Assembly (NCBI RefSeq): GCF_009831625.1
Contig: NZ_WUUS01000008.1
Location: forward strand, 124,001 to 188,000
Length of the DNA: 64,000 nt
Source: Halobaculum saliterrae
GTDB taxonomy: Archaea; Halobacteriota; Halobacteria; Halobacteriales; Haloferacaceae
Reading direction: 5' to 3'
The notes under the pieces were generated by a model, which saw only the letters and a program-made list of their open reading frames with translations, was not told the origin of the DNA and did not search any database. Made by a program: the position numbers and the translations under genes. This document shows, one piece after another, positions 58,990-61,605 of the stretch (its first letter is position 1; each line of letters opens with the position of its first letter).

Positions 58990-59748
58990 GTGACCGCCGC
59001 GCAGCTGACGTTGGTGCAGATCGACAACTACGGCCCGTGGACAGTGACGCCGGAGCCCCGTCGGGAGATGGACCTCCAGACCCTCCAGTCGCGTCTCTTC
59101 GCGGACCTGGCACAGTACATCGGCAACCGCGGCGGGTACGTCTTCTTCACCCGCTTCGACAACATGGTCGCCGTGACGAACGGGCTCGACCGGCGGGACC
59201 ACGAACTGCTTCAGGAGTCCGTGGGGAACCGATACCCCGTCACCGTGAGCCTCGGCGTCGGCGTCGACGAGGTGCCGATCGAGGCTCTGGAGACCGCGAC
59301 CGAGCGCGTGCAGGCGGCCGGCTCCGCGCAGTCGTCGGACCGCAGCGAGGCGCTCGCCGGCGAGTTCCGCGACGGCGACGACGAGGGCGAGGGGGACGTG
59401 CACGTCGCGCACTTCGACGTGAACGACGCGACCGGCAAGTACACCGACCGGCTCAACGAGTTCGACTCGTTCATCAACATCGAGCAGGGGTACGCCTCGC
59501 TGATGAAGTACATGCGCGAGGAGCACGGCGCGCTCTCCTTCTTCGTCGGCGGCGACAACGTCATCGCCGCGTGCCCGGACCTCTCACACGACGAGTACAT
59601 GGGCGCCATCGACCACGTGGCCGCGGACGCCGACGTCCAACTCAAGGTCGGCGTCGGCTCGGGCGAGACCCCCCACGAGGCCGGCTACGCCGCGAAACAC
59701 GCCCTCGAGGACTGCCGGTACGAGGGCACGCTCGTCGAGTTCGCCTGA
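58990..59748 (+). CDS. gch3: GTP cyclohydrolase III
   Basis: 252 residues from a GTG at 58990, chosen because the conserved start QLTLVQIDNYGPWTVTPEPR follows it directly; an ATG at 58960 would add ten Arg-rich residues. LQSRLFADLAQYIGNRGGYVFFTRFDNMVAVTNG and HGALSFFVGGDNVIAACPDL are the two ferredoxin-like halves of the archaeal type III enzyme. It opens GTP to 2-amino-5-formylamino-6-ribosylaminopyrimidinone phosphate in riboflavin and F420 synthesis, using Mg2+. The next gene starts 116 bases on. Confidence 0.92.
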   Translation: MTAAQLTLVQIDNYGPWTVTPEPRREMDLQTLQSRLFADLAQYIGNRGGYVFFTRFDNMVAVTNGLDRRDHELLQESVGNRYPVTVSLGVGVDEVPIEALETATERVQAAGSAQSSDRSEALAGEFRDGDDEGEGDVHVAHFDVNDATGKYTDRLNEFDSFINIEQGYASLMKYMREEHGALSFFVGGDNVIAACPDLSHDEYMGAIDHVAADADVQLKVGVGSGETPHEAGYAAKHALEDCRYEGTLVEFA

Positions 59749-59864
59749 ATCCCCGTTCTGCCGACCCTACTCGTCCGAGCGCCGCCCGCCCGATCCTCCT
59801 CTCCCGAGAACCCGCCCGTCCGGCACCGACACGGTTGTGTCCCCGGAACCCCGAGCCACCGGCC

Positions 59865-60746
59865 ATGAGCGATCCCGACTCCGAACCGCCGCCGGCGATG
59901 GACCCGTCTGAGGCCCGCCGCGACCGCGCTCGGGCGAGTCTGCTCGGGCTGGCCTGCGGCGACGCGCTCGGCCGCCCCGTCGCCGGGGAACCCGCGGCAG
60001 CCGTCCGCGACCGCTACGGCCGCGTGACCGAGATGCTCGGCGCGGACGGCCGTCGGGCGGGGACGACCACCGCTCCCACGGCCGCCGCCGTCGCGGCCGC
60101 CGACCGACTTCTCGACCGATCCGGGGGTCCCCAGTCGATCCCTCCGACTGGCTCCGGATCGGCGACGGATGCCGCGTCGCTCCTCGCCGGCGTCCCCTAC
60201 GGCGTTCTCACGGGGGACGCCGAGGACCGGGCGGCAGCGGCAGCCGAGGGCGCCGCCTCGACCGGGGCGGCCGTCGGAGCCGACGCGACGGAACCGGCAG
60301 CTGCGCTCGCGGTGATCGTCGGCGAACTCGTCGACGGCGAGTCGGTCGCGGATGCGGTGTCGACGGCGATGGCCGTCGCCGTGGCGCGCGACGCCCCGGT
60401 CACGCTGCGGGAGAGCCTGTCGGTCGTCGGCGACCGCGGCGCCGTCGCCATCGATCCTCACGGCGACCGGTCGGCGACGTTCGAGACCGCGCTCCACGAG
60501 GCGGTCGCCGCGGACGACGCGGAGGAGGCGATCGTCTCGGCGGTGAGCCGCGGGGGCAACGCGAGCGCGCTCGGCGCCGTCGCCGGCGCGGTCGCGGGTG
60601 CGCGCTTCGGCACGGACGCGGACGCGATCCCCCCGCGCTGGCTGAACGAGCTCGACGCGACGGAGGAGTACGCCGCGCTCGCCGACGCGCTCGTGGAGTC
60701 CGAAGTCGCGGCCCTGATCGGCACCGACGTGGACACGGACCTCTGA
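59865..60746 (+). CDS. ADP-ribosylglycohydrolase-fold protein lacking metal ligands
   Basis: 293 residues from the ATG at 59865. The start SLLGLACGDALGRP and the C-terminal pattern GAVAGAVAGARFG fit the ADP-ribosylglycohydrolase (DraG) helical fold. The metal-binding Asp residues are missing, however: the position of the TDDT motif reads TTTAPT, and the GGDTDT motif reads GGNASA. It is therefore probably inactive as a glycohydrolase, or binds rather than cleaves. It has many Ala and acidic residues. It follows gch3 on the same strand and precedes the PHP gene. Confidence 0.7.
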   Translation: MSDPDSEPPPAMDPSEARRDRARASLLGLACGDALGRPVAGEPAAAVRDRYGRVTEMLGADGRRAGTTTAPTAAAVAAADRLLDRSGGPQSIPPTGSGSATDAASLLAGVPYGVLTGDAEDRAAAAAEGAASTGAAVGADATEPAAALAVIVGELVDGESVADAVSTAMAVAVARDAPVTLRESLSVVGDRGAVAIDPHGDRSATFETALHEAVAADDAEEAIVSAVSRGGNASALGAVAGAVAGARFGTDADAIPPRWLNELDATEEYAALADALVESEVAALIGTDVDTDL

Positions 60747-60816
60747 GGATCGGGCGGTCGTGAAGCGGTGGCACGGGTCCCGAAGATTCGTGAGGGGGGC
60801 CGCCCTCGACCCCGTC

Positions 60817-61605
60817 GTGTACCACGACTACCACGTCCACTCGACGTACTCGGACGGGTACTTCATCGAGTTCATGGCGGACGCCGCCGCGGAGGCGGGG
60901 CTGTCCGGGATCGGCATCGCGGACCACTGCGTCGTCTCGGAGGAGTCGGCGGAGGACCGCTACCGCCGCGAGATGGGGTTCAACCTCGATCTCACCTACG
61001 AACGCCGCCGCGACGCGATCGAGCGACTGCGCGACCGCGTTGACGTGCGCCTGTTCGACGCTGTGGAGTTGGACTACGAGCCCCGCGACGAGGCCGCGAT
61101 CGCGTCGTTTCTCGACGAGGCGGGGTTCGACTACGCGATCGGGAGCGTCCACGACCTGGAGGACGTGAACGTCCACGTTCGCGACTACTTCGCGGACAAG
61201 TCCGAACCGGAGCGTCGCGCCCTCGTCGACGAGTACTTCGAGAAGTTGGTCGCGCTCGCCGAGTCGGAGCTGTTCGCGATCGCGGCGCATCCGGACCTCG
61301 TGGAGCGCAATCCCGCCCTGCGCGGGCTCGCGACCCGCGAGCACTACGAGCGCGCGGCCGCGGCGTTCGCGGAGTCGCGGACCGTCCCCGAACTCAACGC
61401 CGGGCGGGTGCTCGACGAGTACGGCGAGTTCCATCCCACGCCGGGGTTCCTCGACGCGCTGGCCGACCACGACGTCGCCGTCGCGGTGGGGACGGACAGC
61501 CATCGGCCCGACGTGATCGCCCCCCGCGTGGAGCGCATCGAGGCGGAGCTGTCGGAGCGCGGACTGGAGCCGGTACGGGTGGTTGACGGAGCGGAAACGG
61601 CCTGA
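60817..61605 (+). CDS. PHP-domain phosphoesterase (histidinol-phosphatase-like)
   Basis: 262 residues from a GTG at 60817; other GTGs at 60760 and 60790 are in frame. The PHP domain is clear: YHDYHVHSTYSDG (metal ligands), IADHCVV, VELDYEP, AIGSVHDLED, IAAHPDLVERN and VAVGTDSHRPD. It is likely a metal-dependent phosphatase; it could be a HisK-type histidinol phosphatase or a related enzyme. The neighbouring genes do not fix the role. Confidence 0.82.
   Translation: MYHDYHVHSTYSDGYFIEFMADAAAEAGLSGIGIADHCVVSEESAEDRYRREMGFNLDLTYERRRDAIERLRDRVDVRLFDAVELDYEPRDEAAIASFLDEAGFDYAIGSVHDLEDVNVHVRDYFADKSEPERRALVDEYFEKLVALAESELFAIAAHPDLVERNPALRGLATREHYERAAAAFAESRTVPELNAGRVLDEYGEFHPTPGFLDALADHDVAVAVGTDSHRPDVIAPRVERIEAELSERGLEPVRVVDGAETA

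Follow-up and report, generated by a model that had tools for sequence, protein, structure and literature searches.

Within the ADP-ribosylglycohydrolase (ARH) family, pseudoenzymes are an established kind, with ADPRHL1 (ARH2) as the known example. According to one study, ADPRHL1 has in mammals lost three of the four critical aspartates as well as substrate residues, yet the frog heart cannot do without the altered site (PMC7390403). A family review describes ARH2 as suspected of being inactive (PMC7050489), and a third source reports that mutation of a single Mg-coordinating residue abolishes activity in both human ARH1 and LchARH3 (PMC6309922). In haloarchaea, a further paper records that a predicted ADP-ribosylglycohydrolase of Halorubrum lacusprofundi carries a transposase insertion (PMC10544981). 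The ARH pseudoenzyme that we met in the literature is one vertebrate protein; in the pseudoenzyme, haloarchaeal and Halobaculum literature covered, outside which most subscription papers fall, neither an archaeal ARH pseudoenzyme nor the gene described here was the subject of any paper that we found.

This gene, which we call ARHps, occupies 59865..60746 (+ strand) of the window, that is, of the whole 64,000-nucleotide stretch of Halobaculum saliterrae DNA that was analysed. It encodes 293 amino acids and is regarded here as an ARH-fold pseudoenzyme gene on the basis of its translation, its match to the family profile PF03747 and its orthologues in all 11 Halobaculum genomes.

Family membership and the former metal sites

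Membership of ARHps in the family follows from the ADP_ribosyl_GH profile (PF03747), which scores 63.4 bits (E 3.6e-17) against a cut-off of 26.2; with the TIGR02662 DraG equivalog the score is 70.9 bits, below the cut-off of 337.05, and ARHps does not belong to that group. Among solved structures, phmmer places DraG 3g9d at the top (1.8e-14), followed by 2cwc (2.2e-12), DraG 2woc/2woe (5.7e-12), MJ1187 (1t5j; 7e-5) and ARH3 chains (from 0.0024), and a profile of the ARHps family reaches DraG at 8.2e-20 and MJ1187 at 3.4e-9. Alignment of the ARHps profile with active-type relatives by hhalign gives a probability of 100 and an E value of 2.4e-46 over 257 columns. AlphaFold, run on the window protein and the H. 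gomorrense orthologue (two sequences only), returned an all-helical model with a pLDDT of 39.5 and a pTM of 0.28, and because of this low value the fold is assigned by homology only. Codon-level selection in the core rules out a chance frame overlapping another gene. ARHps is the only PF03747 gene found in the genome of the window, and because it passes the cut-off of that profile it could be named a glycohydrolase, which is a warning for annotation.

The fold signatures named in the earlier note are in place, with GDALG at residues 32–36 (59958..59972, + strand; kept in all nine intact copies) and AGAVAGARFG at residues 240–249. The metal sites are another matter. They were located by HMMER alignment to DraG and by orthologue alignments, the latter comprising the nine intact orthologues and then these together with eleven active-type haloarchaeal proteins (33–42% identity). 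Against 2woc/2woe, T69-A70-P71-T72 falls on TDDT and G230-G231-N232-A233-S234-A235 falls on GGDADT. Former site 1 is therefore TAPT (residues 69–72; 60069..60080, + strand), in which A70 and P71 stand for the two aspartates, and former site 2 is GGNASA (residues 230–235; 60552..60569, + strand), in which N232-A233-S234-A235 stands for D-T-D-T. The note had read site 1 as TTTAPT, of which the last four residues are the exact counterpart of TDDT; the loss itself is borne out, and its reading of GGDTDT as GGNASA agrees with the HMMER alignment. The conserved Glu of GRPVEF in active-type relatives is likewise replaced, in the alignment with those proteins, by Ala at codon 40 (59982..59984, + strand). 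The claim that both metal sites are gone thus holds, as all five carboxylates are changed in the window protein and none of the nine intact orthologues has either site.

Two trivial accounts of this loss can be set aside. The aspartates do not lie elsewhere in the protein, since the 11-protein alignment and hhalign give an identical register, and a slip in a single genome is excluded by the agreement of all nine intact orthologues. The comparison with DraG that the note had proposed was made residue by residue and agrees in register, with MJ1187 and ARH3 compared as table matches; on its question of conservation in other haloarchaea, the loss is common to all nine intact Halobaculum orthologues.

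The two-metal pattern of active ADP-ribosylhydrolases, E...[ST]DDT...D-x-D-[TS] (PMC6309922), is found in none of these nine proteins (A40, TAPT and NASA in the window protein). Listed copy by copy, the residues at the Glu position are AAAADDEDT, with Glu kept in one; the first TDDT aspartate is AADDAEADG, with Asp kept in three; and the second is PPPPVPPAL, with Asp gone from all nine. At the second site, the GGD aspartate position reads NNHHNHAAE and the last aspartate position SSSSSSSSA, both D-x-D aspartates being gone throughout. At most one of the five metal carboxylates is unchanged in any intact copy, counting Asp/Glu swaps as changes; such swaps occur in a few copies, affecting one position or two.

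The loss extends beyond the metal ligands. The middle of the protein (residues 87–145; 60123..60299, + strand) is shortened and fast-evolving and is without PFDxG, NAGNG and HADPR, although gap placement here depends on the alignment. The two sites are 154–169 residues apart in the nine copies (159 in the window protein) versus 197–198 in the eleven active-type proteins, which leaves the inter-site stretch of the window protein 38–39 residues shorter than that of active relatives. The motifs NAGNG, HADPR and SGYV, which the active-type haloarchaeal proteins conserve and which by analogy with described ARH structures would be ligand-holding loops, are absent from all nine intact copies, HGDR replacing SGYV in the window protein. 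Taking the columns of polar, Cys, Gly, Pro, Met or aromatic residues that are conserved in at least 10 of the 11 active-type proteins, all nine copies retain 25, including GD..GRP, T69, T72, GG and RW, and 53 are lost or variable. At a further 31 positions the nine copies agree on a residue that at most 3 of the 11 active-type proteins have; these include RExxxVVGDRxA, H211-E212 and N261. From its sequence, then, ARHps is without a usable metal centre and for that reason very probably not a hydrolase, and the abolition of hydrolysis foreseen in the note is strongly indicated by the change of all five carboxylates.

The locus and its history in the genus

An ARHps orthologue occupies the identical locus in all 11 Halobaculum genomes, nine of them with an intact copy, one with a broken copy and one with a frameshifted copy. 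Again in 11 of 11, GTP cyclohydrolase III comes first, ARHps follows it on that strand, and aIF1A lies next on the opposite strand. In the window the upstream neighbour, identified by profile match as GTP cyclohydrolase III/IIa (PF05165), lies at 58990..59748 (+ strand); it also gives a weak match to the minimal CRISPR polymerase (mCpol), at 20.3 bits under a cut-off of 26.4. Downstream, 13 bp past the ARHps stop, is a gene for a PHP-domain protein (60760..61605, + strand), which is intact in 6 of the 11 genomes, matched as fragments in G002 and G010, and without a match in G001, G004 and G008. The PHP protein is histidinol-phosphatase-like, with 110.8 bits against a subfamily cut-off of 202.

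All 15 regions compared from other genera of the family (12-kb stretches) contain the cyclohydrolase gene, 14 of them with at least one of MBL, OsmC, DJ-1 and HAD alongside, and none contains ARHps, PHP or aIF1A with one weak exception, a 32-residue match in G018 (E 0.002) that is most likely due to chance. Because these 15 regions are without an ARHps neighbour, the cyclohydrolase–ARHps junction is characteristic of the genus, and a shared pathway is not proved by adjacency. With the start codons as chosen, 57 to 473 bp separate the two genes in ten genomes and 3 bp in G010; G001, G006, G008 and G009 have alternative upstream starts with which this gap would be smaller. In G001, G004 and G008, which form one clade, the gap contains an 80-aa frame (loci L059, L062 and L066) that ends with WDALELVVVSQKDPTAARRLLEAAVVDG in G004; a 61-aa reading in the gap of G002 (L060) has a start similar to that of this frame.

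Immediately upstream of ARHps is a promoter-like element, GACACGGTTGTGTC (59828..59841, + strand; 24–37 nt before the ATG), and a related match is found in ten of the 11 genomes, where ACACGGTTGT, ACACGTTTGT, TACGCTTGT or TACGTTTGT begins 34–36 nt upstream of the start. The motif was defined after the sequences had been inspected, which makes the count of ten a descriptive one. Relaxed to ACG[GTC]TT[GT]T, the pattern has one match on either strand of the window, compared with 0 and 1 in reversed control sequences, and by eye TATA-like stretches are similarly placed before some neighbouring genes. From its sequence and position we infer that the element is the promoter of ARHps itself and that the transcript would be leaderless.

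In the scan of named genomes, H. gomorrense (NZ_FQWV01000005.1) carries an orthologue, the sole one among the matches listed. A profile built from the nine copies matches something in 87 of 170 family genomes and, in the sample taken from the order, in 96 of 293. Scores with it are 381–445 bits for the nine intact copies and 188 for the best outsider, and the longer pieces of G010 and G008 score 195 and 183. Among the 45 other loci that were checked for the motifs, five (L016, L018, L025, L094 and L155) were without a frame and the rest represent 33 distinct frames, all 33 of which keep [ST]DDT, G[GD]DxD[TS] and NAGNG. Both metal motifs are visible in L016, L094 and L155; L018 runs across two frames, and L025 is partial. 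A plasmid search gave one match, in Halorientalis marina (17% of the query, 58%), and a scan of viral contigs confirmed no further sequence.

The nine copies group together as a single clade in a tree of 43 rows (100/100, and in 100% of 200 bootstrap trees, with a bootstrap that had not fully settled and an unusual composition in four of the nine ARHps rows) on a stem of 0.9 changes per column. Several separate losses are therefore not needed. A tree of four neighbouring proteins divides {G001, G004, G008} from the rest of the genus, and since ARHps is carried on both sides, the loss of the metal sites predates this split by parsimony. A second PF03747 gene, with a strong match (256–273 bits), is present in four of the 11 genomes (G001, G003, G007 and G009); these second copies (L031–L034) fall at four different places in the tree, and so they look separately acquired, which suggests repeated horizontal gain of active-type copies in Halobaculum. 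A macrodomain gene is present in 8 of the 11 genomes. DraT (PF07357) gave no match in any of the 11, in a search whose positive control likewise gave none.

Selection and the possible roles of ARHps

Ratios of nonsynonymous to synonymous change (dN/dS, NG86) were computed for the whole gene on 10 of the 36 possible pairs and for regions on all 36. Selection on ARHps is weaker than on its active relatives, with whole-gene values of 0.41–0.73 (10 pairs) versus 0.11–0.32 for active-type haloarchaeal ARHs (7 pairs). In the same 10 pairs, the cyclohydrolase gives 0.06–0.19, HAD up to 0.41 and MBL up to 0.47. Within ARHps, constraint acts on both end blocks and hardly at all on the middle: residues 19–86 give 0.28 (0.18 in the four close pairs), residues 146–278 give 0.36 (0.37) and the middle gives 0.77 (0.82). 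By region, the values are 0.69 (residues 1–18), 0.17 (19–38), 0.23 (39–66), 0.44 (67–86, around site 1), 0.77 (87–145), 0.35 (146–195), 0.34 (196–226), 0.27 (227–252, around site 2) and 0.63 (253–282). The two marks of a pseudoenzyme, catalytic residues lost and selection still acting, are thus both present, although over the whole gene the constraint is weak.

Two of the 11 copies are damaged. In G010 (L068) the frame changes just after site 1 begins, the stretch after the change, NPAFEDVFGWTADDVVG, looks like a putative piece of a PAS domain, the promoter-like element is missing, and the genome has the longest end branch (0.15) in the neighbour-protein tree. In G008 the frame changes in the middle, possibly through a sequencing error, since this genome is 85% complete and in two contigs. 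Some lineages, then, appear to be losing ARHps.

We think that ARHps is, on balance, a pseudoenzyme kept for a non-catalytic and probably protein-binding role. Homology, the loss of metal ligands and ligand loops, the single clade, presence in all 11 genomes, the two selected core blocks, the 25 retained family positions, the 31 clade-fixed positions and the promoter-like element of ten genomes speak for this reading; the high whole-gene dN/dS, broken G010 and frameshifted G008 speak against it. The same adverse points, together with the near-neutral middle and the neighbouring PHP gene that is likewise intact in just 6 of 11 genomes, support its main rival, in which function was lost in the ancestor of the genus, the gene is drifting, and the conserved blocks reflect a slow or recent loss of constraint. 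We regard this as unlikely, though a serious contender. Nine of 11 frames are open despite synonymous differences (pS) of up to 0.54 between species. In a simple neutral simulation without indels, in which frameshifts are therefore not counted, the share of genes still stop-free is 32% at 0.2 changes per site and 15% at 0.4; on this ground nine open frames in so diverged a genus are unlikely in the absence of constraint, bearing in mind that the lineages are not independent. Decay also sits poorly with dN/dS values of 0.18–0.37 in the core blocks and with a promoter-like element that persists in ten genomes.

The other explanations give the protein a different task, and each seems improbable. 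The earlier note suggested a sensor that binds ADP-ribose or NAD in a pocket kept without metals. The residues round the old site (GT-T--T; SRGG-A--LG) are identical in the nine copies, and the macrodomain genes would fit ADP-ribose biology in the genus, but the ligand-loop motifs are missing from every intact copy and the old metal positions vary between species (N/H/A/E; A/D/E/G; P/V/A/L), unlike those of a kept ligand site, so that the sequences lend the proposal no support and we disfavour it. A role as an accessory protein of GTP cyclohydrolase III would account for the constant adjacency on one strand, which may reflect no more than shared descent of one locus; with no such neighbour in the other genera, a variable gap, an intervening 80-aa frame in three genomes and an apparent promoter of its own in ten, we find this more doubtful still. 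Least credible is an enzyme that works without metals and has put the old pocket to new chemistry. Some polar residues that are fixed in the clade and not in active-type proteins (R48, R50, D61, R182, E183, R191, H211, E212 and N261) could in principle serve one, but they are not known to line a single pocket, the AlphaFold model being unusable in this respect, and the old catalytic positions differ among copies.

The balance of these arguments returns us to a retained pseudoenzyme. Because the old catalytic positions drift and the end blocks and the 31 clade-fixed positions stay, a role of the surface in binding a partner fits better than one of the pocket. In an ARH gene the two-metal site would have been lost and the substrate-binding middle cut down once, by parsimony before the examined Halobaculum genomes split, and the gene would then have stayed between those for GTP cyclohydrolase III and aIF1A. 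The remaining body would still fold and would work by way of its surface, in all likelihood holding a protein partner in the role of scaffold, inhibitor or assembly factor, and would be made from its own promoter and not within a cyclohydrolase operon.

Comparison with known ARH proteins

The nearest relatives found are the active-type haloarchaeal ADP-ribosylglycohydrolases, including the extra copies in four of the 11 Halobaculum genomes. Unlike ARHps they keep the metal motifs and NAGNG, from which their activity is presumed. The best solved relative is DraG (2woc, 3g9d), which has the two end blocks in common with ARHps. It differs in its DDT and D-x-DT sites (2woc/2woe alignment) and, as the family review describes, in an extra Asp97 (PMC7050489); ARHps keeps none of these.

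More distant are the chains 8xks "ARHL" and 6sga "mt-SAF23", sequence relatives of the ARHps profile (E 0.00012) that were compared by name only. We take both to be parts of eukaryotic organelle complexes. We found no paper on mt-SAF23, or on Ycf2 and FtsHi with an ADP-ribosylglycohydrolase, and the mitoribosome literature sampled makes no mention of an ADP-ribosylglycohydrolase.

The closest parallel is with ADPRHL1, also a PF03747 protein kept despite the loss of most metal aspartates and of substrate residues. There are differences too. ADPRHL1 is a vertebrate protein expressed in the heart, whose loop residues are given as absolutely conserved from frog to man (PMC7390403); ARHps has an old site that differs from one species to the next, and a shortened middle. 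In a prokaryotic branch, one loss of the metal sites followed by survival through speciation would make an ARH body without its chemistry open to study in a small archaeal genome. We tentatively propose, as a possibility somewhat short of probable, that an archaeal genus has, in parallel to ADPRHL1, given an ARH protein over to binding other proteins as a dedicated regulator or assembly factor, with active copies coming and going around it by horizontal transfer.
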